Positions 218 to 26,110 of a DNA stretch of 30,936 nt are shown piece after piece. How positions within the stretch are numbered: the stretch's first letter is position 1; every line of letters starts with the position of its first letter. The translations under genes and the position numbers were made by a program. The notes under the pieces were generated by a model. The model ran no database searches, was not told the DNA's origin, and saw only the letters and a list, made by a program, of their open reading frames with translations. The stretch spans positions 1-30,936 of IMG/VR virus record IMGVR_UViG_3300020433_000032. One strand, 5' to 3'. The stretch comes from a virus.

Positions 218-345
218 TATTTTTTCTTAACTCCTTTAATTTTTTTCTTATTTAAAGTTGCATAAAATACTTGTTCACCTCTTTTTTTACCGTATTGTTT
301 TTTCATAGACTTCATTATTTTTTTACCTTTTTTATTTAGTGGCAT
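217..345 (-). CDS. Small Lys-rich phage protein, 42 aa
   Basis: This 42-codon ORF begins at ATG 345, overlapping the stop of the 728-aa virion protein (TAATG), and ends in TAA at 217-219, which overlaps the next ATG. It is very basic: nearly half of its residues are Lys or Arg, with a central YGKKRGEQVFYATL segment. Short proteins of this type, beginning MPLNKKGKK and carrying a V-F-Y-A motif, are familiar to me from uncultured marine phages, always without a known role. Base composition matches its neighbours. It may bind nucleic acid or help assemble tail parts, but this is inference. Confidence 0.7.
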   Translation of the reverse strand: MPLNKKGKKIMKSMKKQYGKKRGEQVFYATLNKKKIKGVKKK

Positions 346-2531
346 TATCTTCTCCCATCTGGTTGTATGTCTAATCTAAATGTGCCTAGTTTCCAACTTT
401 GGTCAGCAGCTGTATTTTCTATTTTTAATGAAATTGCTCTGGCTCTTGCACGTGTGTCTACTTTAGTTGTAGACGAAGTAATATCAAATGGCCCAAGTGA
501 TGAACTAGATCTTGAGTCATTTGGAAAGTTTCTTAAATTTAACGTAACTCTTGTTGTGCCTGTTTGTGAAACAAAGTCTGGTATAAATCTTCTTACTTTC
601 ATTATAAACTCACCATCGCCTCTAAGATCAGGCATACCAGTTTGAGCTCCTCTTAAAACTCTTTGAGTTATGTCAAAATCACCTGACGAGATGTTTGATA
701 CCACCGCAGTTATCGTACCGTTTTTATTTTGGTCTGTCCCTGTTTCATGTTCATAGTATGATGTTCTACCCTCTGTATTACCAACAACATCAAAAGATGT
801 ATCTGTTGCGGCATCGTATTCTAATGCGTGTGGTTTACCAAATACAGAGGAGTCTTTCCACATAGTTCTAGCTAATGTTCCAACTGTCCATACAGGTCTT
901 TTTAATAATGTAGAATCAAAGTAGTTGTACGCTACCATTTTATTAACCACATCCGATGTGTTTGATGGGTAAAACCATATAACTTCACCAAATAAATTAT
1001 TTAAACCTGCAGAAACCATTTGATTACCAGATGCTAAATTTATATCGTCGTATACAAAATCTTCTACTAAACATGGTAGTGATTCTAATTTACCACCATA
1101 TCTAAAGAAACCATTCTCTGACATCCAGTATGCAGCATCATCAACTTCAACAGCTGCGTTCTGTCCAACAAGTCCACAGTTAGTTCCAACCTGTGCAAAC
1201 GCAAAGGTAAATGGTTGACCAACAAAACGCATTGTAAATAACGCTGTGTCAGTCCAAACAAGAATTGAATCTCTACCTCTTATAGCTCCCATGATTTTAG
1301 ATCCGTCAGCAAGTCTTTGTGTACCTGCTGTATTGGTTGCTGTTGGTGTGTATGAATTTATATTCTCTTGATCAGAGAATCTAATAAACATGTCGTCTTG
1401 TGTTGTGCTATCTCCAATAGTTGTCTCTGTTCCAAAAAATACTAAGTGACGATCCGGTGTTGATACAACCATGTGTCTTGATGCTGTAGGTGCACCAGAT
1501 ATAATAGTTGCTCGTGTTTCAGTAGCATTACCTAAACTAGAGTCCCAAGAAAAAACAGGACCATCATGAATTAAACAAATAGCTTTGTCACCAAAATTAT
1601 CTAATGACCACATACCTGGATCTAAAGCTAAACCTTCCTGTGTTTGTTCGTTCCATGCACTATAGTCTGTACCATTTGTAACAGTTGCACCATCACTGTG
1701 AGACGCAGCAGTTGTCCCTCTAGTTCCTCTTGTTACTCCTGTTAAAGTGTTACCGCTTATACCTGTGTATTGTATCATTTCTGTTCCGATTAAAACAAAG
1801 CTAGTTCCTGTTGATGGAAACTGTGCTGCGTTTGTTAAAACTATAGTTGTTGTACTAGCGTCTATTGCTCCATTTAAAGTCGTCGTAACAGCTCCTGTAT
1901 CTTCACCTCCATAAGAACCTAAACCCCAACCATAACCTTTTTCTTGGACAGCTGTTCCAACAGGATAATAATGCTGTACCCTAATACCCCCTGATGTCGT
2001 TGCCCCGGACCCCGATTCATTAGAAGGCATTGTAACTGTAAGGGTTGTAGCTGTTGGGACAGAGGTCACCATAAATTTTTTATTATCAAAATCAGATGAT
2101 CCAAAATTAGAACCAGTAATGGTTGTAAAATTATCTAATAAAATAATGTCATTTGGATTTATATTGTGTGCAGTTGAAAAAGTTATTGTAACTGTTGGTG
2201 ATCCATTTACTGTGCTAAATGCATTTGTAAGAGTTGTTGTAGTTTTTATAGGGTGTATATCATAAAAGACATCTCCAGAAAAAGCATACAATATTCTATT
2301 AGTTCCAATGATAGCATATCTTCTTCCAGCGGTATTTAAGAAATGATGAAGTCCTCTACCAGCACCTGTTAATTCATTAGAATTTAGACCCCCTAATTGA
2401 TTCCAGCCACCTATTTTTTCAGGCACACCATACCTAAACCTAACATTATCACAGTCAACCCACTGGCTTTCTGCCCCGGTTTCTGTGATTTGTTTATTAA
2501 TACCTGGTTGAAATACTATTTTTTGTAGCAT
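345..2531 (-). CDS. Large virion/tail structural protein (728 aa) with inserted Ig/beta modules
   Basis: The N-terminus (about residues 19-45) has the pattern E-x-x-W-V-D-C-D-N-V-R-F-R-Y-G-x-P-E-K-I-G-G-W, typical of large phage neck or tail proteins that I have seen in marine podovirus-like genomes. Residues 98-190 form a beta-rich module with S-P-T-V-T-I-T-F followed by H-N-I-N-P-N-D. Residues 216-286 form a second module with the A-S-T-T-T-I-V-L-T and I-Q-Y-T-G-I-S-G-N-T-L-T-G pattern found in many phage tail proteins. The remainder is rich in aromatic and beta residues and lacks membrane segments. A P22 gp10-like stabilisation or tail-tube role is plausible from position, but sequence alone does not prove it. 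Confidence 0.7.
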   Translation of the reverse strand: MLQKIVFQPGINKQITETGAESQWVDCDNVRFRYGVPEKIGGWNQLGGLNSNELTGAGRGLHHFLNTAGRRYAIIGTNRILYAFSGDVFYDIHPIKTTTTLTNAFSTVNGSPTVTITFSTAHNINPNDIILLDNFTTITGSNFGSSDFDNKKFMVTSVPTATTLTVTMPSNESGSGATTSGGIRVQHYYPVGTAVQEKGYGWGLGSYGGEDTGAVTTTLNGAIDASTTTIVLTNAAQFPSTGTSFVLIGTEMIQYTGISGNTLTGVTRGTRGTTAASHSDGATVTNGTDYSAWNEQTQEGLALDPGMWSLDNFGDKAICLIHDGPVFSWDSSLGNATETRATIISGAPTASRHMVVSTPDRHLVFFGTETTIGDSTTQDDMFIRFSDQENINSYTPTATNTAGTQRLADGSKIMGAIRGRDSILVWTDTALFTMRFVGQPFTFAFAQVGTNCGLVGQNAAVEVDDAAYWMSENGFFRYGGKLESLPCLVEDFVYDDINLASGNQMVSAGLNNLFGEVIWFYPSNTSDVVNKMVAYNYFDSTLLKRPVWTVGTLARTMWKDSSVFGKPHALEYDAATDTSFDVVGNTEGRTSYYEHETGTDQNKNGTITAVVSNISSGDFDITQRVLRGAQTGMPDLRGDGEFIMKVRRFIPDFVSQTGTTRVTLNLRNFPNDSRSSSSLGPFDITSSTTKVDTRARARAISLKIENTAADQSWKLGTFRLDIQPDGRR

Positions 2532-2581
2532 GTAAAATCCTGTTTATCAGGTATTATATCAGATTATGCTCAATTTCAAGA

Positions 2582-3139
2582 TCAAATAAAAGTAGCTACT
2601 AGAGCAATTCTTGCTCCAAACTTAGGGTACTCTTGATAGTGTGGTAAATTTTCAAAGCAAGCTCCTTTGCCTGCTTTATAGGGTATCTTTTTTAATACGT
2701 TGTTATTTTTATCAACAATAAAAGTATCGCCGCTTGAATCATTTAAATAAATAATAATTTGTTTGTGGTTATATTCATGGTCTAAATGAACACCACATGT
2801 TTTATTTTTATTAGGTATTGTAATATTGTAAGCAATCCGTGTATAAAAATTTGGTTTCTCTCCTATCTTCTTACAAAAATTATTTAAAATATCTAAGGTA
2901 TTTGTATAAACTAAATCATCAGTATTTATAGCATCTTTAAGATTTTGAGTTTGTTCTAGTCTTTTTAAAACAACATGGCAAAACATAACATCTTTAGGTC
3001 TATCATTAATTGTACCTGGCAAAAGTGTAATGCCTTGTTGAAAAAATACTGGAAAATTTTTTCCGTAAACTACTTCTTCAATAAATTTTTTATTTTCTTT
3101 AGTTAAAAAATTTTGTTTTTCTTTAAAAAATAGTTTCAT
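2582..3139 (-). CDS. 2-oxoglutarate/Fe(II)-dependent oxygenase-like protein, copy 1
   Basis: This 185-aa protein has the signature of the Fe(II)/2-oxoglutarate dioxygenase fold. The metal triad is visible as H118-x-D120 in G-V-H-L-D-H-E-Y and the distal H167 in L-P-H-Y-Q-E-Y-P. R177, ten residues later in F-G-A-R-I-A-L, is the expected 2-oxoglutarate carboxylate ligand. Between them is a typical beta segment (I-I-I-Y-L-N-D). The family hydroxylates proteins, nucleic acids or small molecules; the substrate here is unknown. The gene is the last of four consecutive oxygenase genes, 2 bp from the next, and lies upstream of the large virion gene in the same transcription unit. It is the most divergent of the four. 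Confidence 0.7.
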   Translation of the reverse strand: MKLFFKEKQNFLTKENKKFIEEVVYGKNFPVFFQQGITLLPGTINDRPKDVMFCHVVLKRLEQTQNLKDAINTDDLVYTNTLDILNNFCKKIGEKPNFYTRIAYNITIPNKNKTCGVHLDHEYNHKQIIIYLNDSSGDTFIVDKNNNVLKKIPYKAGKGACFENLPHYQEYPKFGARIALVATFI

Positions 3140-3141
3140 AT

Positions 3142-3726
3142 TTATTTATAAACATTAAAATTATATGCCAACGATATTCTTTTCTCATTAGTTAAGTTCT
3201 GACTAACTGAATGAACTAAATTAGAATCAAATATTAACAACAAACCTGGTTGAGGATTTATGCACATATTAGAAAAAGTGTATTCGTTCTCTGGATTAAA
3301 TAAATATACTTCTTTAGAAGGCGAAGGGTTTTTAAAATTTATAGTCCCTGTTTTATGTGATCCTTGTAAAATATATATGGCTGATATATTAAAACCCATG
3401 TGGTCATGAGCTTCTTGATAATCATATTTATTATAAACATTAAACCAGCTTTCTTTACATTGAACACCTAATTTTTCATAACCTATTGTTTTTGAAAATT
3501 CTAAAACATTTGAGAATACAAAATTATTTACATCTTTAAATTTATCATCAGAGTGAATAAGATGTTGACCATAAGTATTATATAACTGTGACTCCCAAAG
3601 TCCTCCTCCTTTCTTTTTTTTATTTTTTAATTTAGTGCAATACTTAACTAAATTTTTTTGTATTTTTTTGTGTTGTTCATTAACAGTTATACCTAATGGT
3701 ATACTGAATATGTTTCTTATTTGCAT
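3142..3726 (-). CDS. 2-oxoglutarate/Fe(II) oxygenase-like protein, TIGR02466-like, copy 2
   Basis: This 194-aa protein resembles the phage/bacterial putative 2OG-Fe(II) oxygenase family described as TIGR02466 (2OG-FeII_Oxy_5). Visible landmarks are S-W-F-N-V-Y (93-98), A-H-D-H-M (106-110), G-L-L-L-I-F-D (161-167), V-H-S-V (171-174) and E-K-R-I-S-L-A-Y-N-F (181-190). Predicted metal ligands are H107 and H172, with H109 where most dioxygenases have Asp, and R183 as 2-oxoglutarate ligand. I recall this family using P-H-x-H in this position, so the His is probably a family trait and not a lesion. It sits 10 bp from copy 3. The substrate is unknown. Confidence 0.7.
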   Translation of the reverse strand: MQIRNIFSIPLGITVNEQHKKIQKNLVKYCTKLKNKKKKGGGLWESQLYNTYGQHLIHSDDKFKDVNNFVFSNVLEFSKTIGYEKLGVQCKESWFNVYNKYDYQEAHDHMGFNISAIYILQGSHKTGTINFKNPSPSKEVYLFNPENEYTFSNMCINPQPGLLLIFDSNLVHSVSQNLTNEKRISLAYNFNVYK

Positions 3727-3736
3727 GTTTCTCCTA

Positions 3737-4321
3737 TCATTTAAAGTTTGATCCTGTACTCCATCCCACTAAAGAATTTCTTTCACCTCTAGTTACAGGA
3801 GTTACCTTGTGTAATATAAAACTAGGAAAAGCTATAATAGTTCCTTGTTTTCTATGGTTAGTAACATCTAATTTTGTTCCTTGACAAAAAACTAAATCTC
3901 CACCTTTATATTTTTTAGGGTTAGTAAGTTGTATTGAGAAAGATAGTTTTCGTGCATTTGGATTACCAAAACCTCTATCTACATGCCAATCGTAAAAATT
4001 ATTTTTTTTATATTTTGTAAATTGAAAGTCTTGTGAAAAACCCTCTAGATCAAATTTAAAGTAATCTCTATTTAAATTGTTTATACAGTTACTAACTCTT
4101 TCGTATATCCATAAAGTTTCATCAGATACAGGTATCCAAGATACTGTGCCTTTTCTTACTTTTTTATAAATTTTTCTTTCTTTTCCAATAGTGGCTTGTT
4201 CAAATAATTGTTTCTCACCTATTTCCATTACAGCCTCACATTCTAATTCATTAAATATATCTTCTTGCCAAGCATAATAATTGACATGATCTGGTATATT
4301 AAATTTCCAATTTGCTGGCAT
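3737..4321 (-). CDS. 2-oxoglutarate/Fe(II) oxygenase, PKHD/prolyl-4-hydroxylase-like, copy 3
   Basis: This 194-aa protein carries the full set of dioxygenase landmarks: W-H113-V-D115 for iron, then S-F-S-I-Q-L-T (127-133), Y-K-G-G-D-L-V-F (138-145), G-T-I-I-A-F-P-S-F (160-168), H171-K-V-T-P-V and R181 in G-E-R-N-S-L, followed by W-S-T-G. This order and spacing match the PKHD-type or prolyl-4-hydroxylase-like branch of the Fe(II)/2OG family. The enzyme should use O2 and 2-oxoglutarate to hydroxylate a substrate, which cannot be read from sequence. It is transcribed between copies 4 and 2, with 4 bp to the former. No signal peptide is visible, so it acts in the infected cell's cytoplasm or in the virion. 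Confidence 0.85.
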   Translation of the reverse strand: MPANWKFNIPDHVNYYAWQEDIFNELECEAVMEIGEKQLFEQATIGKERKIYKKVRKGTVSWIPVSDETLWIYERVSNCINNLNRDYFKFDLEGFSQDFQFTKYKKNNFYDWHVDRGFGNPNARKLSFSIQLTNPKKYKGGDLVFCQGTKLDVTNHRKQGTIIAFPSFILHKVTPVTRGERNSLVGWSTGSNFK

Positions 4322-4325
4322 TATA

Positions 4326-4913
4326 TTATTTCCATCTTGGTCCGGACAAAAAAATAGTAAAAGTCCTTCGCTCTCCTTCCGTCACTGGGGTAACTCTATG
4401 GTTTAAATGTGATTTAAACATTAACATAGCTCCACTTTTAAATTCAGGTATGGCGTAAGGACCTTGATTAAATATTTGAAATTCACCACCACTATATTTT
4501 TTTTCAGAAAGATTAAGTAACACTGTCCATTTTGTATCAAAGACTAATGTTTTAGATTTGTCTATGTGCCATTCATAGTTTGCTTTAGTTTCAGAAGAAT
4601 AAATATTATAGTTTCCACAGTCCATTTTACTGTATTCATTAAAAAGATTGTAAGAAAAATTTAAATTATTTGTATAGTAAATTTGGTCTAAAATAGGATC
4701 AACATATTTACTGCACTTTTTTAACGGTATTAAAAAAGTCTTTACATTTTTAAGAGATTCGCCTTTTTGATTTGTTGCGTGTGAAGTACGAGGCTCAACT
4801 ATTTTACAGTTTTTCTTTAATAAATTATTGAAACTTTTAATTTGTTTAGGAGTAAAATAATTTCTCCATATCCAATAATCATGATCACGATCAGGTGTTG
4901 TTTCTACTTTCAT
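4326..4913 (-). CDS. 2-oxoglutarate/Fe(II) oxygenase, PKHD/prolyl-4-hydroxylase-like, copy 4
   Basis: The longest frame opens at a TTG at 4925, but the ATG at 4913 is the likelier start, giving 195 aa beginning MKVETTPDRDHDYWIW. Numbered from that ATG, the iron triad is H116-x-D118 and H172, and the 2-oxoglutarate ligand is R182 in G-E-R-R-T-F-T. Family landmarks T-V-L-L-N-L-S, Y-S-G-G-E-F and G-A-M-L-M-F-K-S-H-L-N-H-R-V-T-P-V are all present. It is clearly related to copy 3 in the shared H-x-V-T-P-V-T-x-G-E-R block but diverges elsewhere, which fits old duplication or separate recruitment. No strong Shine-Dalgarno is seen at either start. Confidence 0.83.
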   Translation of the reverse strand: MKVETTPDRDHDYWIWRNYFTPKQIKSFNNLLKKNCKIVEPRTSHATNQKGESLKNVKTFLIPLKKCSKYVDPILDQIYYTNNLNFSYNLFNEYSKMDCGNYNIYSSETKANYEWHIDKSKTLVFDTKWTVLLNLSEKKYSGGEFQIFNQGPYAIPEFKSGAMLMFKSHLNHRVTPVTEGERRTFTIFLSGPRWK

Positions 4914-4958
4914 ACTTTTTAACAAAGTATATATCTTTTAAAATGAATTGTAAATAGA

Positions 4959-5393
4959 TTATTCTATGCTTTGGCCGTCTATTAAATCCCAACGCTGCTC
5001 ATCTTCGTTCCAACCATAATACCAATCATTAGTTCCTGCAGTATTTTGAGCTTGTTGTTCTTCAGTTAGCTCTGGAGCATCACCATGAGGTGAAGTCCAT
5101 TTAGGAGCAGTATTTGATATAACCCAACTAGGAAAAGGTTTTTCTGGCATGAAGACTTGACTTATCGGATCCCATGTGCATCCTTTAGTTGCAAAGTTTC
5201 CTCTAAGAGGAGTTCCACCAAGTTTGTGCTCGCCTCCTGCTGTATTGTAAGAAGTTTGTAACCACGTTCCGTCTTTTTTTAAAACGTTTTGTATAAATTC
5301 TTTTCCTGCTTCTTCTGATGTTACTACATCATTGTGAAGAACTATACAGTCTACTACATTATTGTTTTCATCTATTTTTGCAAAATGAGCCAT
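4959..5393 (-). CDS. Conserved marine-phage tail-module protein, 144 aa
   Basis: The protein starts MAHFAKIDENNNVVDCIVL, then has W-L-Q-T-S-Y-N-T (44-51) and later Y-P/F-P-S-W-type motifs (E-K-P-F-P-S-W, 84-90). I recognise this pattern from a widespread small protein of cyanophages and pelagiphages, usually found beside tail-fibre genes and sometimes annotated as structural. The C-terminal third is acidic and Trp-rich (D-W-Y-Y-G-W-N-E-D). Its ATG overlaps the stop of the glycine-rich tail gene (TAATG), so the two are translationally coupled. It may be a fibre-associated virion component or assembly factor. The biochemical role is unknown. Confidence 0.7.
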   Translation of the reverse strand: MAHFAKIDENNNVVDCIVLHNDVVTSEEAGKEFIQNVLKKDGTWLQTSYNTAGGEHKLGGTPLRGNFATKGCTWDPISQVFMPEKPFPSWVISNTAPKWTSPHGDAPELTEEQQAQNTAGTNDWYYGWNEDEQRWDLIDGQSIE

Positions 5394-6310
5394 TATGTTA
5401 CGTAACTCCCTGAACCTGTAAATTTCATTATTGTAAAGTCTCCTACAGTTGTAACAGTTGGAGATCCTGAAGTTGTTCCAGAATAACTAGCTGTTGGCAC
5501 TTTTAATACAACGATACCGCTTCCTCCACTCGATCCGCTATTTCGGCCGCCGCCTCCGCCGCCGCCCGTATTTGCCTGCCCGTCGAATCCGTTTTGTCCG
5601 TTTCCTCCGCCGTTTCCAGCGCCGCCTTGACCGCCTTGCCCGGCTGATTTTGTGCCCCCGCCAGATCCGCCGCCACCGCCAGCGTAATACACTTGAGTTG
5701 TACCATCTACAATATTATTTTGAGCTCCGTCTCCACCTTGGCCTCCGCCCCCGTTTCCAGCCGTTCCCGGTTGAGTAGCTCCTCCGCCTCCACCTCCAGC
5801 GAATTGAGGGTAAGGTAAGTTAGCTCCGTCTCCACCTGGGTTACCTTGACTTGGAGAAGTAGAAGGTGTGTTTCCAGCAGCTCCACCAGGTTGGTATCCA
5901 ACACCGAAATAATTTCCATGGCCGCCTCCGCCGCCTCCGCCAGATCCGCCCGTTTGGCCGACAGCGTTATAATATCCTCCGCCACTGCCTCCACGTGTGC
6001 TAGTAATTGTTGTAAGAGATCCACCAGAAACTGTAGAGTCTCCTTGTGCAGCTCCTACTGTAACTGTTAAAGTTTCTCCAACAGGAATATCTTGTTGGGT
6101 TGAAGTACGGTACCCTCCCGCACCTCCTCCGCCGCCCGTGAATGCGCCCGATCCTCCTCCTGCGACAACCATCATTTGAATTTCATAAGGAGGTTTACTA
6201 CCGCCCGCACCAAATCCTAGGACTTGATATCCAAACATTTTACCTTTTTTTGATTGTGTGTTTTTAGTTCCTTTACCACTAGTGGCTAGGTACTCTGGTA
6301 TTTTTCTCAT
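5393..6310 (-). CDS. Glycine-rich tail-fibre tip / adhesin-like protein
   Basis: This is a 305-aa protein. Residues about 50-270 are dominated by glycine runs separated by short Tyr, Pro, Asn and Ser loops. The segment opens M-M-V-V-A-G-G-G-S-G, as in phage Gly-rich domain proteins, and ends S-G-I-V-V-L-K-V-P before a short beta C-terminus. By analogy with the polyglycine-helix adhesins at T-even fibre tips, it probably forms the receptor-contacting tip, with specificity set by the loops. Because glycine codons are GGN, the gene is a local GC-rich island in an AT-rich genome. It lies between a fibre-like gene and the oxygenase array. Receptor binding is inference. Confidence 0.75.
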   Translation of the reverse strand: MRKIPEYLATSGKGTKNTQSKKGKMFGYQVLGFGAGGSKPPYEIQMMVVAGGGSGAFTGGGGGAGGYRTSTQQDIPVGETLTVTVGAAQGDSTVSGGSLTTITSTRGGSGGGYYNAVGQTGGSGGGGGGGHGNYFGVGYQPGGAAGNTPSTSPSQGNPGGDGANLPYPQFAGGGGGGATQPGTAGNGGGGQGGDGAQNNIVDGTTQVYYAGGGGGSGGGTKSAGQGGQGGAGNGGGNGQNGFDGQANTGGGGGGGRNSGSSGGSGIVVLKVPTASYSGTTSGSPTVTTVGDFTIMKFTGSGSYVT

Positions 6311-6320
6311 ATTCTAATCC

Positions 6321-7562
6321 TTACAGATCGTTAGCTGCATCTGTAGTGAAGAATATTTTAACTCCAAGCACTCTTGCATCAGCAGTAAAAGTATCTCCAC
6401 CAGCATTTGCGTCTCTAAATAATTGGAAGTACGTTAACTCACCTGCTGCAGGAGATCCTGCAACTGTAACAGCACCGCTTTCAGAAGATATTTGTTGGTC
6501 TTCAACTGTACCTATTCCAGCGTCTGTAACGTTTACTGCAGTCCCATATGCAACATCGATAGTGTCACTGTCTGCACACGCAACAGCTTGTAATCCAAAA
6601 ATACAATCACCTGTGTTTGTAGAACCAGGTGTCCAGTATACTTGGTAAGTTAATGTTCCTTCATTCCATGATTTAGGCATAGCTATCGAAAATTGTGCAA
6701 ATTCATCTGTGTCTTTATCAAAGTCTAAAACTTTCATATCAGGTCTTGTTGCTGTTGTTTCGACTTGTTGTGCATCAGCTGGGTTTGTTGTTGCTCCATA
6801 CATCGCTGAAGCTGGAACCCAAATAGTTTCTTTACCAGCTATTTTAACTGCAGACACATTTCCACCACTATCCTCAGCTTGAATTACTCCGCTTCCTTTT
6901 GTTTTTAAAGCTAGACCAATATTTGTATCATCACCTGATGCAGTTAACGTAGGATTATTTCCTGTTGCTGCATTGGCTAATGTTACTTCGTTAACAGCAG
7001 AACCTGTTGCTGTTAAAAGAGCTAATTGATTTCCGTTAGTGTCTAATATTGAAGTTCCTATTGCAGGAGATGTTAAAGTTTTATTTGTTAAAGTCTGTGT
7101 TCCTGTAAGAGTTACATCACCAGCACCAAACTCTAAAGTTATTATATTAGGATTTGTGCCATCATCCGCTGCTGCAAAAACTACAACATCACTTTTATCA
7201 GTAGCTGAAAAAGTAAATGTACTACCTGATCCAGAAACATATTTAAATTGTACTGTGTATGCACCTGATGTTGAATTTCTTAAAAAATAAAAAGTTTGAA
7301 CATCTAAAGGTATAGTTACGATTTGATTTCCTGTAATTGTACCTGTAAATTCAATCATTCTGTGTGCAAGAGTTGCACCAGTTGATCCATCAGAAACAGA
7401 TAGAGTTGTTGTTTGTGCGCCACCGGCTATTGATTGTTGAGTGAATCCACCCGAAATTTGTTCTAAAAGCTGTAAATTTGTATTAGTTTTCGTACCCCAT
7501 GTTCCGGCGTTTTCACCAGTTGCTTGAAGTTCGACTCCTAGTCCCGTGTATGTTGATGCCAT
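6321..7562 (-). CDS. Putative tail-fibre / appendage protein, 413 aa
   Basis: The N-terminus (MASTYTGLGVELQATGENAG, then T-W-G-T-K-T-N-T-N) is the conserved attachment-type start of many phage fibre-like proteins. The middle has T-L-T-G-T-Q-T-L-T-N-K-T-L-T-S-P (151-166), a repeat-like shaft motif common in fibres. The C-terminal third is a different beta-rich domain ending F-F-T-T-D-A-A-N-D-L. There are no membrane segments. It is followed 10 bp later by the glycine-rich tip gene, consistent with a base-shaft-tip series. A tail-fibre or spike role is likely, but oligomeric state and receptor are unknown. Confidence 0.72.
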   Translation of the reverse strand: MASTYTGLGVELQATGENAGTWGTKTNTNLQLLEQISGGFTQQSIAGGAQTTTLSVSDGSTGATLAHRMIEFTGTITGNQIVTIPLDVQTFYFLRNSTSGAYTVQFKYVSGSGSTFTFSATDKSDVVVFAAADDGTNPNIITLEFGAGDVTLTGTQTLTNKTLTSPAIGTSILDTNGNQLALLTATGSAVNEVTLANAATGNNPTLTASGDDTNIGLALKTKGSGVIQAEDSGGNVSAVKIAGKETIWVPASAMYGATTNPADAQQVETTATRPDMKVLDFDKDTDEFAQFSIAMPKSWNEGTLTYQVYWTPGSTNTGDCIFGLQAVACADSDTIDVAYGTAVNVTDAGIGTVEDQQISSESGAVTVAGSPAAGELTYFQLFRDANAGGDTFTADARVLGVKIFFTTDAANDL

Positions 7563-7574
7563 AATTCTTTTCTC

Positions 7575-9461
7575 CTATGCTACGTCACTATATGTTGTAT
7601 TTGAGCCTGTTGCAACATCTGTATACGATGAATTTGAACCTGTGTCAACGTCAGAATATGCTTGAATTCCGAAGCCTGTAGCAGTTCCAAATCCAGCAAC
7701 AGAAACAGTTGCGGATACTCCTGTTAAAGTTATATCAAAAGTACTACTAATTGACAACCCTGTTCCAACACTAGAAGTTAAAGATTGTCCTGTTAGACCC
7801 ATTTCTTGGTCAGAAGGATCTATAGATCCCACACTAGAAGTTAAAGGTAAACCAGTAGGTAATACTATAGGATTTGAATTTACAGATATTCCACCTAAAC
7901 TTATTGTAGAAGATAATCCAGAAACTCCTATTACATCTGCGGGAGATATAGAGCCAACAGAAGATGTAGCTGATTGTCCTGTTGGAACCATAACATCTGT
8001 TGCTATTACAGCACCTACAGAAGAAGTCATTGACTGACCAGTTGGAACAACCGTGACATTACCAATTACTGTAGGTGATCCAATACTAGATGTTGCAGCA
8101 ATTCCTGTAACTCCCATTACATCCGCAGGAGATATTGAACCAACAGAAGATGTAGCTAATTGCCCGTCTAATAATATATCACCTTGAATACCCCAAGCAT
8201 CGTCATCCCAAGCAGCTCTGCCCCAACCAGCATTTATTTCTGCTGTTATTGAAACTGTTCCTACACTTGTTGTTGCACTAATACCTGAAGGAAAAACATC
8301 TATGTTAGCAAGTTCACCCCAGTTATTGTCTCCCCAAGCTTTACCACCCCAACCTTGTTGAGGAACACCCATATTTGTTCCATCACCAACAGATGAAGTT
8401 AAACCAAATCCAGTTAAACTTACTACAGGGTTACTACTTTCACCCCAAGGTTCAGAGTTCCAAGTGTTTCTACCCCAACCATTTGATTGAAATGATAACA
8501 ACCCATCTGCATTTAATGATGTAGTTAATCCAAATCCTGTTAATACAGCACTGTTGTCATTAACTTGACCCCATTCTCCTCTACCGTATGTTTCGCCACC
8601 CCATCCTTTTGAAGGAACAGCCATGTTTGTACCATCACCAACAGAAGAAGTTAGTCCAAAACCTGTTAATGAAATAGTAGTTCCATCTTGTTGGCCCCAA
8701 GAATTTTGACTCCAACTAAACATACTCCAAGTATTAGCTTCAGGAGTGTTAGCCGTCCAACCCATACCTGAGTGATTTGTACAGTAGTAATATAAAGTTG
8801 GTGCAGAGTCCGCTACTATTATTTGAGTGTACGCTCCTGCTTGACCTGGTGTTCCACTGGTTGACACGCCCGTGGTATATTCGCTACCTCCAGAATGTGT
8901 ACCGTTTGCGGTTGTAGAAAATCGTAAAGGGTGACCAGAATTAGAACTGTCTGATTGATCAAAATAATAAGTTCCACTCTCGGCGATATATAAAGTTACG
9001 TCCGCCGTAGCAGTTGAACCATCTATTGCATATTTATTAGCTGAGCCAAAATTATGATAAGGGTGGTTTGCAGGATTACCACCAACTACTGTAACTTCAA
9101 AAACTCTTGTTGTTGTAGAAGCAAGTGTATTTGCTTGTCCACCCATACCTGAGTGAACCTGACAGTAATAGTATAAAGTTGGTGCAGAAGCTGCTACTTC
9201 TATTTGTGTATATGCTCCAGATGATCCTGGGGTTCCATTAGTGGTTACATTAGTTGTATACTCACTTCCTCCAGAATGTGTGCCCCCAGATGTTGTAGAA
9301 AGTCTTAATGGGTGTCCACTGTTTGATGAATCAGATTGGTCAAACCTATATGTTTTTCCCTCTATAAGATTTAGAGTTTTTTGTTGTGAACCATCAATAA
9401 CGTACTTATTACCTGAACCGGTGCTAACAACCGTTACTGTGAAGGTTTGAGTAACGGACAT
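7575..9461 (-). CDS. Repeat-rich tail protein with two N-terminal cupredoxin-like domains
   Basis: This 628-aa protein has three parts. Residues 1-115 and 125-240 are two related cupredoxin-like domains. Each carries G-H-P-L-R (H50; H177) and Y-Y-Y-C-x-x-H-S-G-M (C100, H103, M106; C227, H230, M233), the His-Cys-His-Met ligand order of type 1 copper sites with the C-x2-H-x2-M spacing of amicyanin. Residues 245-425 hold G-W-G/W-G tryptophan repeats alternating with L-T-G-F-G-L-T-S-S-V-G units. Residues 430-590 continue with shorter T-G-x-x-x-T-S-S-V-G units, and the end is a Y-S/T-D-V repeat. It is virion or tail structural by context. Copper binding is predicted, not shown. Confidence 0.8.
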   Translation of the reverse strand: MSVTQTFTVTVVSTGSGNKYVIDGSQQKTLNLIEGKTYRFDQSDSSNSGHPLRLSTTSGGTHSGGSEYTTNVTTNGTPGSSGAYTQIEVAASAPTLYYYCQVHSGMGGQANTLASTTTRVFEVTVVGGNPANHPYHNFGSANKYAIDGSTATADVTLYIAESGTYYFDQSDSSNSGHPLRFSTTANGTHSGGSEYTTGVSTSGTPGQAGAYTQIIVADSAPTLYYYCTNHSGMGWTANTPEANTWSMFSWSQNSWGQQDGTTISLTGFGLTSSVGDGTNMAVPSKGWGGETYGRGEWGQVNDNSAVLTGFGLTTSLNADGLLSFQSNGWGRNTWNSEPWGESSNPVVSLTGFGLTSSVGDGTNMGVPQQGWGGKAWGDNNWGELANIDVFPSGISATTSVGTVSITAEINAGWGRAAWDDDAWGIQGDILLDGQLATSSVGSISPADVMGVTGIAATSSIGSPTVIGNVTVVPTGQSMTSSVGAVIATDVMVPTGQSATSSVGSISPADVIGVSGLSSTISLGGISVNSNPIVLPTGLPLTSSVGSIDPSDQEMGLTGQSLTSSVGTGLSISSTFDITLTGVSATVSVAGFGTATGFGIQAYSDVDTGSNSSYTDVATGSNTTYSDVA

Positions 9462-16457: not shown

Positions 16458-16892
16458 TTAAAATTCGTGGAATATGTCTTCAGGGTTTTCCACGGTCGCT
16501 AAAACTTCATCATCATTGAGAAGTCTTATCTCACCCCCATCTATTTTAATTCGTGATCCAGCGTATCTTGCAAAGATAATCCAATCACCTTTTTTACACC
16601 AAGGACCTTCTGGGTATCTTTCTTTATCATAGCAATGTGGTCCCATTCTTAAAACTAAACCACAAGTTGATGCTACTTGTGATCGTTCTACTGTTTCATC
16701 TGCTAATAATATTCCACCTTTTGTTTTTTCTTTTTGTTTAAAAGGTAAAACTAAAATTCTCCAACCTGTTGGATTAGGAAGCTTTGATGATTCATCAATC
16801 TCTTTTTTATTTGATTTTTTTACACCAACTAATTCTTTATTTGGTGTTATTATCTTTTGGTTTGATACTGATAACTGTTCCTTCGCTGTCAT
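16458..16892 (-). CDS. Phage GroES-like co-chaperonin
   Basis: Residues about 43-137 match the Cpn10 fold: G-W-R-I-L-V-L-P-F at the start, a mobile-loop segment E-K-T-K-G-G-I-L-L-A-D with the G-G-I-x-L pattern that binds GroEL, then V-A-S-T-C-G-L-V-L-R-M-G-P, K-K-G-D-W-I-I-F-A-R-Y, and the final strand D-D-E-V-L-A-T-V. Compared with bacterial GroES (about 97 aa), it has a 40-residue polar N-terminal extension and a longer connecting segment with two Cys. It should cap the host GroEL ring to fold a bulky phage protein, most likely the capsid subunit encoded downstream in the same unit. Host interaction is inference. Confidence 0.82.
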   Translation of the reverse strand: MTAKEQLSVSNQKIITPNKELVGVKKSNKKEIDESSKLPNPTGWRILVLPFKQKEKTKGGILLADETVERSQVASTCGLVLRMGPHCYDKERYPEGPWCKKGDWIIFARYAGSRIKIDGGEIRLLNDDEVLATVENPEDIFHEF

Positions 16893-22299: not shown

Positions 22300-22408
22300 T
22301 GTTTTTCTCCGAGTTCGAAACCACTATAGTCTTTTTTCCAGGAACATTCAACCCCTGTGGGTTAGGTCCTCTCTCTGGTGGTATCGTAGTTGTTAGTTTT
22401 TTAATCAT
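22244..22408 (-). CDS. Small Pro/Asn-rich protein, 54 aa, bridging large genes
   Basis: The ORF from ATG 22408 to TAG 22244 overlaps the stop of the 827-aa gene by 8 bases (ATGATTAA) and the portal start by 56 bases. It opens MIKKLTTTIPPERGPNPQG, and the T-I-P-P-x-x-G-P-x-P-Q-G pattern is one I recall from short marine phage proteins. The last 20 residues are Arg/Asn-rich and read through the portal start, so a shorter functional region is possible. Coupling to the gene upstream supports expression. Function is unknown. Confidence 0.5.
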   Translation of the reverse strand: MIKKLTTTIPPERGPNPQGLNVPGKKTIVVSNSEKNNVRNRQVFTKRKARNRIT

Positions 22409-24884
22409 CTTGTAATAGTTTCATTCCTTGTATTCCTAAAGAAGCACCAAATCCAAGTATACCAGCTCGTGATAACACTCTTAAAGCAGCAGGGCTCATG
22501 CCTAATGAAGCAATACCTCTAACTGCTGATGGTAGTCCTCTAGTTAGTTTTGGTGTCTGATCTGCAAATGCAGGGTATAAATAATTTAGTGGATCTGTAG
22601 CCACATCTGAAATTGAATCACCTTCTGATACTTGTCTTGCTAAATCTAATCCAGCCAATGGAGCTAGTAATCCTGGTGAAGCCGCAACACCTAATCCTCT
22701 ACCAAGAACTCTTCCTGCAGTTCTAGCAACCCCTTTTCTTTCAACACCTAATCCTCTTGATCTACTAGCCTTAATTGTTGATGGTGCACTGAGAGCCGTT
22801 GCACCTGCAACTGTTGCACCAAGTGCGGGTAATTGATAATCTAAAATAGCTGGTCTTTCTAAATCTGGTGCAATAGGATTTGTGGCCATATCAACCAACA
22901 TATTTTTTTGTTGGTCTTCGTTTGATAAATAACTTGTTCGATCATCATTTCTAAATTCTTTTACAAAAGCAGTTCCAGCTGCTCCTGCAACACCAGCTAA
23001 AGTAAATCTTTTTACGCCTGGTGATTTTAAAAAATTTAAAAAACCTGTTGCAACTCCTTTAATTCTATTAACACCCTCTGTTTTTAAATTTTGAATTTTG
23101 CCTGCTGTTCCTACCGGATCTTCTTCTAAGGCTGCAGCCATTTGTGCACCACAACCTCTACCACCTTCAGCTAATTTAGCTCCACCAAATATTCTACATA
23201 TTTGATTTGTATCTTTGTCTGCAAATTCAATTAATTTTTTAGAACGATTAATTAAATTAGTAGCAGATTTTTCTCCAAACACTTCTGTAAGTTCTGGTGT
23301 TAATCTACCCGACGCTAATGTTTTTTTAATAAACCCGCCTAACGGAATATTTTTTGCTGCTGATTTTGCAATATCATACTGTGGATCTAATAGCTTAGGT
23401 GCTCCATAATCTATTACATTTATTTTTCCTGTTTTATCAATTGTAAAATCACCTGCTAAGTTTCCAAATAATGTTTGGTTTATGTTTTTTAATTTTTCAA
23501 CTTTTGCAATATTTGCATCTATGTCTGTTCCTTTCATAATAGCTTGTTGAAGATTGTTTAATTTTCTATCTAAACCTAATTTCCATTGATTGACATCTCC
23601 CATAATAGGATTTGTTCTTATGGCTCCCTCTATGTCACCACTTCTTTGTAAAGCTGCAAATGAGATAGGATGATCAAATTGAAAAGCTGCACCTTGTCTA
23701 CCTTTTTTTCCTAACTCAAAAGCGTCAGTTACTCTTTTTCTAATTACTCCATAATCTTTTAATTTTTGTAATGCTCTTTTTTTAAGAGTGGGATTATCTC
23801 TATAAAATTCTTCTACAGTCCCTGCAAAATCTCTTCCAATCTGAGATGGAAAAATATTAAATAATGTTTTAAGAACTACAGGTAGTTGACCAGACTCTAT
23901 GTTTTTAACATTCTTTAAAATGTTTGGTCCTATTGTTTCACCCCTAGATTCTTTTAAAAGTCTACTTGTACCATTTCTATGTGCTTGCACAGCAGCTTTA
24001 GTAATTTCAGAATTACTTAATCCTTTGCCTGCTAGTTTACTAACACCTGCAAATAATTCTTGTTCTGTCCTTATGTCTGGATTTTTCTTTACAAAATCTA
24101 TAACACTAGGGACTAAAGGGTTTCCTATATTTTTAATTGCAGCTGTCTTTGTTATTTTTTCTTGTTTTAATTTTTGAATATTTTCAAAATCAAAATTTTT
24201 AATTGTATTTAATTGTGGTTTAGAAATATCTAATTGATCAAATATATTTTTATATACTTCACCAGTTCCAGTTCCACCAGGTGCAATAGGTGCTTTTCCT
24301 TTTGCATATTGAACTAATCTTCTCCATACATTACCTGCTCTATTATCAAATTTACTTACTTTTAATCCTGCAGCTTTAGCTGCCGCCATAGATTTTTTTC
24401 TAGAAGGAAGATCTAAATAACTTTGTAAATTACCACCACCTGCCTTCCATTCATCAAAACTTTTTAAAAATTCTTTTAGTTTTGGAATTGCTTCTTTTGG
24501 AAATCTAGTTGGTATCGTATATTTTTTACCACCAGAGGTAAATGTTTGTTCAAAACCTCCAGCAGCTACTTTTTCACCTCTTATCTTTTTTACCGATTTT
24601 TCTCTAGATCTTTTAGTTTTTTCTGATTGTGGAAGTTTTACATATTCATCATATGATAGACCTAAAGATTTTGCTATCTTTCCTATTTTACTATTATCTT
24701 TTAATCTTTTTTGTAACTTAGAATCTTTTTGATATTTAAGGGCTGCTGCTTTTGCTTTCGCAGATGTTCCATAATCTTCTTTTAAAAAAGCTTTTTCCTC
24801 ATAATTACCTACTAGCTTATCTCCGTAGCTAAAAAACCAAGAACCACCGGTTCCATATGGTCTAACGTTTCCAAGTAATATCAT
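22401..24884 (-). CDS. Large internal virion / DNA-ejection-type protein, 827 aa
   Basis: The protein is Lys/Ala/Gly-rich and mostly helical. The N-terminus (W-F-F-S-Y-G-D-K-L-V-G-N-Y) precedes a basic helical region. Around 400-445 is F-Q-F-D-H-P-I then N-P-I-M-G-D-V-N-Q-W-K-L. At 562-585 is I-C-R-I-F-G-G-A-K-L-A-E-G-G-R-G-C-G-A-Q, a cysteine-flanked G-G-R motif. The last 200 residues hold hydrophobic Gly/Ala segments (about 626-640, 683-700, 731-747, 808-820) that could enter a membrane. Size, composition and position between terminase and portal fit an ejection protein of a short-tailed phage. This is inference. Confidence 0.55.
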   Translation of the reverse strand: MILLGNVRPYGTGGSWFFSYGDKLVGNYEEKAFLKEDYGTSAKAKAAALKYQKDSKLQKRLKDNSKIGKIAKSLGLSYDEYVKLPQSEKTKRSREKSVKKIRGEKVAAGGFEQTFTSGGKKYTIPTRFPKEAIPKLKEFLKSFDEWKAGGGNLQSYLDLPSRKKSMAAAKAAGLKVSKFDNRAGNVWRRLVQYAKGKAPIAPGGTGTGEVYKNIFDQLDISKPQLNTIKNFDFENIQKLKQEKITKTAAIKNIGNPLVPSVIDFVKKNPDIRTEQELFAGVSKLAGKGLSNSEITKAAVQAHRNGTSRLLKESRGETIGPNILKNVKNIESGQLPVVLKTLFNIFPSQIGRDFAGTVEEFYRDNPTLKKRALQKLKDYGVIRKRVTDAFELGKKGRQGAAFQFDHPISFAALQRSGDIEGAIRTNPIMGDVNQWKLGLDRKLNNLQQAIMKGTDIDANIAKVEKLKNINQTLFGNLAGDFTIDKTGKINVIDYGAPKLLDPQYDIAKSAAKNIPLGGFIKKTLASGRLTPELTEVFGEKSATNLINRSKKLIEFADKDTNQICRIFGGAKLAEGGRGCGAQMAAALEEDPVGTAGKIQNLKTEGVNRIKGVATGFLNFLKSPGVKRFTLAGVAGAAGTAFVKEFRNDDRTSYLSNEDQQKNMLVDMATNPIAPDLERPAILDYQLPALGATVAGATALSAPSTIKASRSRGLGVERKGVARTAGRVLGRGLGVAASPGLLAPLAGLDLARQVSEGDSISDVATDPLNYLYPAFADQTPKLTRGLPSAVRGIASLGMSPAALRVLSRAGILGFGASLGIQGMKLLQDD

Positions 24885-26110
24885 TAAACCTCCAGAATCT
24901 TAGCTAGGCCACCACTTCTAAATCCAATACCTACTTCTATGCCAAGTTGTTTTTGAAGATCTTTAATTGCATCTGGATAATCATCTGGGTTTTTTAAAAC
25001 TTTATTTAATTGTTTAAAGTACATAGTTTTTTCTTTGCCGACTAATTTTTTATCTGTGCCAAGACCTGCAAACAGTCTTGATATATCTTTACCTTCAAAA
25101 CCATATTTACGTAAAGCTTGGAAACCCATTCTTGCAGCACCACCCATGAACATAGGCACTCGTCCACCATCTGCAAATTCAAAATCTTCTGGGTTAACGG
25201 TTCTTGGATCAAACATTCTATCAGTTACAGATCTACCTCTACCATCTTTAACTCTTATAAGTCTTTCTGCAAATTTTTGAATGTCATTTGGATTATCTAT
25301 TTTTGCAATCGCTGTTGCAACTTTTGGTCCAAAATATTTTTGTACCAATAACAGTGGGTCACCTAATCCTGCTCCTCCACCCTCAGTCATAAATCTAAAA
25401 TCATCTGCTTCCATAACTGATGATAAAGTTGGACCGCCTGGAAACTGTGGGTCTTCTAAATCTTTTACTCTATTTAAAAAATCTCTAGCGTTTGCTCTAA
25501 CAGTTGGTTGAGCATTTTTTGTTACACCTGCGTTTAGATAAATTGTATCTACTAATTCATTCACAATTAAATTATTGTTTTGAACATTTTTAATTGACTC
25601 TAAACCTGCACCTGTTGGAGATTTATCAATACCTTCAGCCCTTGCCATATTTCTAAATGTTTCATCTGCTGATTGAGTTGGTGCTGCAATATCGTCTGGT
25701 CCTCCACGTGAACCTGGTGGTGGTAAATCGTCTGCTGCTCTCAAAGACATCAAACCAGCTTTATCTAATCCTCCAGTTCTTGTAGCAAGGTCAACAACAT
25801 TTTTTGGTTCTGCAGGTGGAAAATAAACTTTCTCCATCTTCTTCATGTTAGATAATAATTTGTTTGCTTGAATATCATTTAGTTTACCGGCTACAGCATA
25901 ACCCACTGAACCCGTTAATTCTTCTACTGCTTTTGATTGTGGTAATATAGCTAGAGCTTCTTCGTTGATGTCCATATCTAACATCAGCTCTGGAGACTTA
26001 CCCTTTCCTAAAAAATTTACGTTAGTTTTAGTTCCAAGAACGTCATTAGTGTTACCACCTAACTTTTTATATAATTGAACAATTGTATTTACTAGTTCTC
26101 GTCTAGCCAT
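24884..26110 (-). CDS. Putative internal virion protein, 408 aa, GGR motif
   Basis: The N-terminus (A-R-R-E-L-V-N-T-I-V-Q-L-Y-K-K-L-G-G) leads into a helical, Ala/Asp-rich chain with a Pro/Gly linker (D-D-L-P-P-P-G-S-R-G-G-P-D-D). Later it has F-A-D-G-G-R-V-P-M-F-M-G-G-A-A-R-M-G-F (about 312-330), a G-G-R motif like those in nearby genes. It ends F-R-S-G-G-L-A-K-I-L-E-V. It overlaps the terminase stop by 8 bases and abuts the 827-aa gene by one base. I associate such proteins with the head interior of marine phages. No enzyme motif is visible. Confidence 0.55.
   Translation of the reverse strand: MARRELVNTIVQLYKKLGGNTNDVLGTKTNVNFLGKGKSPELMLDMDINEEALAILPQSKAVEELTGSVGYAVAGKLNDIQANKLLSNMKKMEKVYFPPAEPKNVVDLATRTGGLDKAGLMSLRAADDLPPPGSRGGPDDIAAPTQSADETFRNMARAEGIDKSPTGAGLESIKNVQNNNLIVNELVDTIYLNAGVTKNAQPTVRANARDFLNRVKDLEDPQFPGGPTLSSVMEADDFRFMTEGGGAGLGDPLLLVQKYFGPKVATAIAKIDNPNDIQKFAERLIRVKDGRGRSVTDRMFDPRTVNPEDFEFADGGRVPMFMGGAARMGFQALRKYGFEGKDISRLFAGLGTDKKLVGKEKTMYFKQLNKVLKNPDDYPDAIKDLQKQLGIEVGIGFRSGGLAKILEV

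Follow-up and report, generated by a model that had tools for sequence, protein, structure and literature searches.

A hypervariable array of 2-oxoglutarate/Fe(II) oxygenase genes linked to the tail-tip side of a pelagiphage genome may tailor host recognition

Introduction

Why should a marine phage keep several enzymes of one class side by side among its tail genes? The question is raised by a 30,936-base IMG/VR virus record (IMGVR_UViG_3300020433_000032; this whole stretch is called the window below), in which four consecutive minus-strand open reading frames (ORFs), OX1–OX4, occupy positions 2582-4913. A first-pass annotation, made from the sequence alone, had assigned all four to the 2-oxoglutarate (2OG)/Fe(II) oxygenases. 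Such enzymes hydroxylate their substrates, or oxidise them in related ways, in a reaction coupled to the decarboxylation of 2OG, and members with a fold close to that of the window enzymes hydroxylate proteins. As we describe below, the contiguous, hypervariable array very probably belongs to the host-recognition (tail-tip) module, and we assign a probability of roughly 0.45 to the reading that it is a tailoring-enzyme cassette of that module, the likeliest substrates being the tail-tip proteins encoded with it.

Judged by its genes, the window is a fragment of an HTVC023P-type pelagiphage, a marine phage whose relatives infect SAR11, a very common group of bacteria. Its terminase (TerL) and that of Pelagibacter phage HTVC027P share 65.5% identity, and the similarity and synteny of the head and tail genes with those of HTVC023P-type pelagiphages also place it in that group. 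A nucleotide search of the array region against named phages gave no match.

Results

Fold, family and active sites of OX1–OX4

Profiles or structural models identified the oxygenase fold in all four genes, in agreement with the first-pass annotation. OX2 matched PF13759 (E 2e-18; 67 bits against a curated cut-off of 27), and OX3 and OX4 matched PF13640 (E 1e-14 and 1e-11) above cut-off; the OX2 score for TIGR02466 fell slightly under the threshold (60.8 vs 62.5). Because OX1 reached no Pfam family, it was modelled from a 24-sequence alignment (A2). The resulting AlphaFold model (predicted local distance difference test, pLDDT, 89) had solved 2OG oxygenases as its best Foldseek matches in the PDB (top E 7e-7), with a VIA-align Z of 15.7 to 6n1f and values of ~14 to PHD2, AlkB, and PiuC. 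A model of OX2 (pLDDT 91) matched the PF13759-type structures 3bvc and 2rg4 (Foldseek E ~1e-11, Z ~21). The double-stranded beta-helix fold is thus predicted by models for OX1 and OX2 and by Pfam for OX3 and OX4. OX1 also matched phrog_274 ('DNA endonuclease V', 2e-22), a label that we reject given the oxygenase fold of the model.

The metal triad and 2OG-binding arginine originally proposed for every gene were recovered only in part. An HxD...H triad is present in OX1, OX3, and OX4, and an arginine lies 10-11 residues past the distal histidine in all four proteins (Table 1); OX1 Arg177 is almost invariant in alignment A2. OX2, by contrast, has an HxH site in place of HxD/E, with H107-x-H109...H172 invariant across 30 aligned sequences, and HxH also stands at the corresponding aligned position of its solved relatives 3bvc and 2rg4. 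Because a loose H-x-[DEH]...H...[RK] pattern was found in ~39% of shuffled array proteins, the motif by itself is weak evidence; we rejected a motif scan as proof of oxygenase identity and base the assignment on profiles and models. OX1, OX3, and OX4 are probably catalytically active.

Pairwise identities among OX1–OX4 are just 21-31%; as had been surmised, then, the genes are not recent duplicates, and their sequences mark them as old, divergent paralogues. PADLOC matches in the array were to generic 2OG domains only, and a defence-system reading was discarded.

Two alternative functions bear on these active sites. First, the fold might act without catalysis, as a binding or chaperone domain in fibre assembly, a role that would suit a recurring ligand-less subfamily in relatives (Table 1). 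We regard this role as very improbable, as the ligands are kept in the majority of members, OX1, OX3, and OX4 of the window included, and the columns of His118 and His167 are ≥90% conserved in alignment A1. The subfamily is a conserved one of apparent pseudo-enzymes that retain the fold profile but lack the metal-binding His/Asp residues; many of its members begin like MQKKVLTEQALYFGD. Second, the enzymes might repair or modify nucleic acids, by AlkB-like chemistry or base hydroxylation. OX1 does align with AlkB (Z ~14.6), and PHROG labels such as 'DNA endonuclease V' point the same way, but PHD2 and PiuC give about equal Z, the sole match to a nucleic-acid-oxygenase family is weak and below cut-off (OX4, PF09859, 17.6 vs 26.2 bits), and the array genes sit with tail genes, not replication genes. 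This function, too, has very little probability in our estimate.

Arrays of this kind are common in relatives

To place the window among its relatives, IMG/VR was scanned with the gene for the stabilisation protein (STAB), which bounds the array downstream. At least 600 related stretches were found and the best 80 retrieved; 60 loci (window included) contained the entire interval from fibre gene to STAB. These loci (L numbers below) are best-scoring contigs, many of them fragmentary, with genes called as simple ORFs; 2OG genes were detected by iterated profiles, which could include a few non-2OG proteins. The interval held 0-11 2OG genes, with a mean of 4.25 (4.5 with phrog_2954 counted; see below), and at least one in 57 of the 60. 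Pfam scans of 120 members, mainly cluster representatives, assigned the majority to PF13759 or PF13640. For the HTVC023P-type group, a row of four is therefore about average and not the oddity that the first-pass annotation took it to be. Similar rows occur in myoviruses, including HTVC008M (four plus a phrog_2954 gene), S-RSM4 (~eight in one region), and S-SCSM1 (ORF240-243, adjoining tail-fibre genes).

The phrog_2954 family is called 'ferrochelatase' in PHROGs and in published annotation. We found no ferrochelatase match in Pfam or the PDB, whereas an HxD and a distal histidine are invariant, and weak hits include a Tet-like dioxygenase (0.05) and PF13532, 2OG-FeII_Oxy_2 (0.05). We therefore reject the label; by sequence, the family probably consists of 2OG oxygenases. 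If so, a published arrangement of oxygenases beside ferrochelatases (PMC9599517) may be one of oxygenases beside oxygenases. Both labels, 'DNA endonuclease V' and 'ferrochelatase' (phrog_274, phrog_2954; OX1; L016:7458-8027; HTVC023P gp67), look like mis-annotations of 2OG-oxygenase-like proteins.

Five loci (L001, L022, L060, L061, L081) carry the entire array in reverse orientation to the structural genes on either side, which means that it can be moved or read as a unit of its own. In three loci (L021:20066-20716, L034:20983, L069:19150), a single 2OG-like gene lies outside the array, ~10 kb past STAB and on the other strand.

Array genes turn over rapidly and move together with the tail tip

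Array content changes quickly among close relatives. For pairs of loci with STAB proteins ≥95% identical, 54% of array genes were shared at 50% identity, but only 11% were shared at 85-90% STAB identity. At the same 50% level, the window has no array gene in common with any complete relative, despite STAB identities of up to 91%. Within enzymes, the median ratio of nonsynonymous to synonymous substitution rates was 0.19 (83 pairs), which indicates purifying selection and thus enzymes that are kept functional.

At least one pair of loci shows exchange en bloc. From inside the fibre-like gene g413 to the end of the array, a distance of ~8 kb, loci L006 and L064 share 90-99% DNA identity, mostly 95-99%, compared with 74-83% in STAB and ~77-89% ahead of the block. 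The transferred block comprises the fibre C-terminus, the Gly-rich protein, oxygenases, and a halogenase. Conversely, the pairs L005/L006, L043/L064, and L058/L062 carry unrelated arrays though their STAB proteins are 94-96% identical. Taken together, these two patterns indicate that the block acts like a host-recognition cassette that holds oxygenases. Co-transfer through a recombination hot spot is, on its own, no proof of function.

No common DNA linker that might drive shuffling was found at gene junctions. The top junction k-mers largely come from the 3' end of a single widespread PF13759 gene, and several different genes come after it, depending on the phage. This gene end (EPFRFIHWNIQAVPK) precedes different array genes in L003, L006, L008, L028, L032, L042, and L053, a sign of mix-and-match assembly.

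The array is linked to the tail-tip side

Several lines of evidence tie the array to the tail-tip (adhesin) side of the module rather than to the stabilisation-protein side. First, a second survey was seeded with g144 alone, a small gene that marks the tail-tip side. In ~78 of its 80 loci the genes next to g144 were mostly 2OG genes, the usual order being Gly-rich gene(s), g144, several 2OG genes, and often phrog_2954. Second, in loci whose CUPR-g413 fibre genes have a downstream rather than an upstream position (L099, L100, L129, L150), the array remains with the Gly-rich-g144 pair. The same Gly-rich-g144-oxygenase neighbourhood recurs in cyanomyovirus S-RSM4, S-CAM8, and HTVC008M, so that the cassette is also present in some related marine myoviruses.

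Third, placement relative to tail genes, which the first-pass annotation had suggested surveying, is non-random. In HTVC023P, HTVC027P, 023Pt_psg01, and DSL-LC04, whole-record searches put every detected 2OG gene in the tail-tip region; in myoviruses these genes lie partly at g144 and partly elsewhere. Pooling the g144-selected genomes, 22 2OG genes lay within 6 kb of g144 compared with 3.9 expected from circular shifts (P 4e-5), an enrichment drawn from few, partly related genomes that were mostly not significant singly. Finally, across 23 loci, array similarity tracked g144 identity with STAB controlled (partial r 0.37, Mantel P 0.002) but not STAB identity with g144 controlled (partial r 0.05).

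These results also bear on the idea that the oxygenases are auxiliary metabolic cargo, serving 2OG, nitrogen, or iron physiology, that collects at a recombination hot spot beside the adhesin and merely hitchhikes. Metabolic roles have been suggested for cyanophages through NtcA and 2OG levels (PMC3037559) and for HTVC027P gp73 through iron uptake (PMC12753301), and the tail-tip region is itself such a hot spot, where physical linkage alone would yield co-transfer. Bulk 2OG consumption, however, would hardly call for up to 11 mutually divergent enzymes per cassette with near-complete turnover among close relatives. Moreover, the complete HTVC023P-type genomes have no scattered 2OG genes, and STAB, which is as near to the array as g144, does not track it. 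We consider the cargo explanation improbable.

Companion enzymes and the host-surface alternative

Arrays often contain enzymes of other classes as well. A Trp-halogenase family (PF04820, E 3e-89) is present in eight loci, including L005:3601-5025, L006:5607-6992, and L064:5607-6992, and there are eight NodU-type carbamoyltransferase genes as well as sulfotransferases, methyltransferases, and small JmjC/cupin proteins. Near the window's own array, the fibre protein encoded at 7575-9461 has Trp-rich WG repeats, and halogenases occur in the arrays of relatives.

The chief alternative to modification of tail-tip proteins is action of the array on the host surface, or synthesis of a modified sugar or amino-acid product; either might, for instance, prevent superinfection or keep progeny from re-adsorbing to debris. 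The array would then travel with the adhesin since the two have a receptor in common. Translation factors, which the first-pass annotation named as targets next to the host surface, may likewise be modified. Halogenase, carbamoyltransferase, sulfotransferase, and methyltransferase genes within arrays would suit such a role. A comparable 2OG-halogenase-carbamoyltransferase cluster in S-SSM6a is read as capsule decoration or secondary metabolism in the part of that study available (PMC7824862), and glycosyltransferases of the pelagimyophage host-recognition cluster have been interpreted as a means of coinfection avoidance (PMC7029224). Against this role, the array gap genes examined include no glycosyltransferase or sugar-nucleotide gene, although HTVC023P and HTVC027P do encode a glycosyltransferase beyond STAB. 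In addition, HTVC027P is described as obligately lytic (PMC12753301), which makes durable host conversion of less obvious value. On balance we judge a host-surface target unlikely, albeit not so unlikely as metabolic cargo.

Genes and signals around the array

The intergenic gaps between OX1 and OX4 are 2-10 bp, no terminator-like site was found in 2300-7700, and promoter-like sites that might serve the array alone were not commoner than in shuffled sequence. The mechanical ORF of OX4 begins at a TTG at 4925; Table 1 uses the ATG start. The Gly-rich protein is a probable adhesin, and searches of the PDB with it and with g144 gave no useful match. The tail-fibre-like protein has its two cupredoxin-like segments, of the form CxxHSGMG, at the N-terminus, and has no Pfam match. 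Farther away, the head region encodes a GroES-like co-chaperonin (16458-16892), with an annotated GroES at the matching place in HTVC023P and HTVC027P, and two large proteins of 827 and 408 residues (22401-24884 and 24884-26110) in the portal-terminase interval are without a PHROG match.

Table 1. Array genes, their neighbours in the window, and ligand-less array members in relatives (aa, amino acids)
Feature	Position	Strand	Description
STAB	345..2531	-	Stabilisation/virion structural protein, phrog_3287; bounds the array downstream
OX1	2582..3139	-	185 aa; 2OG-Fe(II) oxygenase fold (predicted); HxD H118, D120; distal H167; R177
OX2	3142..3726	-	194 aa; PF13759 (2OG-FeII_Oxy_5); HxH H107, H109; distal H172; R183
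OX3	3737..4321	-	194 aa; PF13640; HVD H113, D115; distal H171; R181; PKHD/PiuC-like
OX4	4326..4913	-	195 aa from ATG; PF13640; HID H116, D118; distal H172; R182
g144	4959..5393	-	Small 'MAHFAK' protein, phrog_7759; trails Gly-rich fibre genes in many marine phages
Gly-rich tail-tip protein	5393..6310	-	PF21722 Gly_rich_2
g413	6321..7562	-	Fibre-like protein, phrog_31104; homologues exchanged from within this gene onward
Tail-fibre-like protein	7575..9461	-	Two cupredoxin-like segments and Trp-rich repeats
Metal-ligand-less subfamily members	L003:27208-27711, L002:27549-28052, L028:4085-4588, L083:4948-5499, L017:6540-7052		

Discussion

A candidate tailoring cassette

Position, co-transfer, and co-resident tailoring enzymes together suggest a substrate connected with host recognition, and the fact that relatives can swap the enzymes and the tail tip as a block suggests, without proving, that the enzymes chemically tailor recognition of the host. 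We favour co-encoded tail-tip proteins as the substrate, at somewhat less than even odds, because an adhesin and its modifiers would need to be imported jointly. The nearest solved folds include protein hydroxylases, namely PHD2, Pseudomonas putida P4H (which acts on EF-Tu), and the chlorovirus enzyme vCPH.

In the mechanism that we propose, array genes would be co-expressed with late tail genes, and their products, with Fe(II), O2, and 2OG, would hydroxylate side chains of the tail-tip proteins encoded nearby. OX2, given its HxH site, would perhaps perform another oxidation. In some relatives, a second enzyme could then sulfate, carbamoylate, methylate, or halogenate the hydroxylated product. 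The modification would alter adhesin stability or receptor binding, and a phage gaining a new adhesin would have to bring in the matching enzymes too. The S-SCSM1 virion proteome, in the portion of that report available, mentions no 2OG enzyme (PMC9602691), which fits enzymes that act in the cell. A stronger version, in which phages exchange an adhesin along with its own combination of oxygenases and later-acting tailoring enzymes that chemically modify it, adding chemistry to sequence as a source of diversity in receptor recognition, strikes us as doubtful.

Several observations weigh against modification of tail-tip proteins. PHD2, P4H, and AlkB folds score alike, so that fold cannot separate a protein from a nucleic-acid or small-molecule substrate; halogenase and carbamoyltransferase partners also fit small-molecule or glycan chemistry, as far as the available part of PMC7824862 indicates; and some array members lack metal ligands. 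T4-like relatives also have 2OG genes well away from their tail genes, such as those lying between clamp-loader genes. Finally, g144 is a small gene, and it alone tracks the array; for the Gly-rich protein itself, whose identity is a noisy measure, the partial correlation was 0.003.

Relation to known systems

Pieces of this picture have been published. In the phage group of the window, eight non-orthologous 2OG families lie near each other with 'ferrochelatase' partners (PMC9599517). That study calls the genes not adjacent and metabolic, whereas the arrays surveyed here are contiguous, hold as many as 11 genes, and are linked to the adhesin side. Many 2OG genes are known in cyanophages, where a 2OG/nitrogen hypothesis was put forward (PMC3037559), and the pelagimyophage host-recognition cluster was described with stress on glycosyltransferases (PMC7029224). 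According to the available part of its description, the S-SCSM1 genome has 24 2OG genes (PMC9602691). Its ORF240-243 resemble the window in being four consecutive 2OG genes, directly ahead of tail-fibre genes ORF244-245, but S-SCSM1 is a T4-like cyanomyovirus, and that part of the paper reads its 2OG genes in terms of host metabolism without discussing tail linkage. HTVC008M likewise has a run of four 2OG genes and a 'ferrochelatase' adjoining Gly-rich-g144 and neck genes, with a halogenase nearby; it differs in being a myovirus and in having the array on the opposite strand.

Among the genes of marine phage metaviromic islands, those for Fe(II)-dependent oxygenases ranked with the commonest and were filed under 'host recognition'; the accessible sections of that paper describe no arrays, co-transfer, or mechanism (PMC3909814). 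S-SSM6a and similar cyanophage clusters hold 2OG, halogenase, and carbamoyltransferase genes side by side, the same enzyme classes as here, and what is available of their description takes them for a secondary-metabolite or capsule system and does not mention adhesin linkage (PMC7824862). The collagen prolyl hydroxylase vCPH of chlorovirus PBCV-1 (5c5t) is a virus-encoded 2OG hydroxylase with the same fold as the array enzymes, although it is a single enzyme of an algal virus and only 10-12% identical in sequence. Reports of 4-hydroxyproline in viral proteins exist (Eriksson 1999, as cited in the part of PMC9301287 available). In the open literature we found no direct report of hydroxylated phage tail proteins and no paper on contiguous arrays exchanged with an adhesin or testing a substrate. 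New here are the contiguity and hypervariability of the array, the purifying selection on its enzymes, and its linkage to the adhesin side.

If these oxygenases are indeed part of the host-recognition module, many genes now filed as 'auxiliary metabolic genes', a large class, will have to be re-read. The function of phage 2OG oxygenases would then become testable by mass spectrometry of virions from cultured phages, and adhesin modification would be a way of diversifying host recognition.

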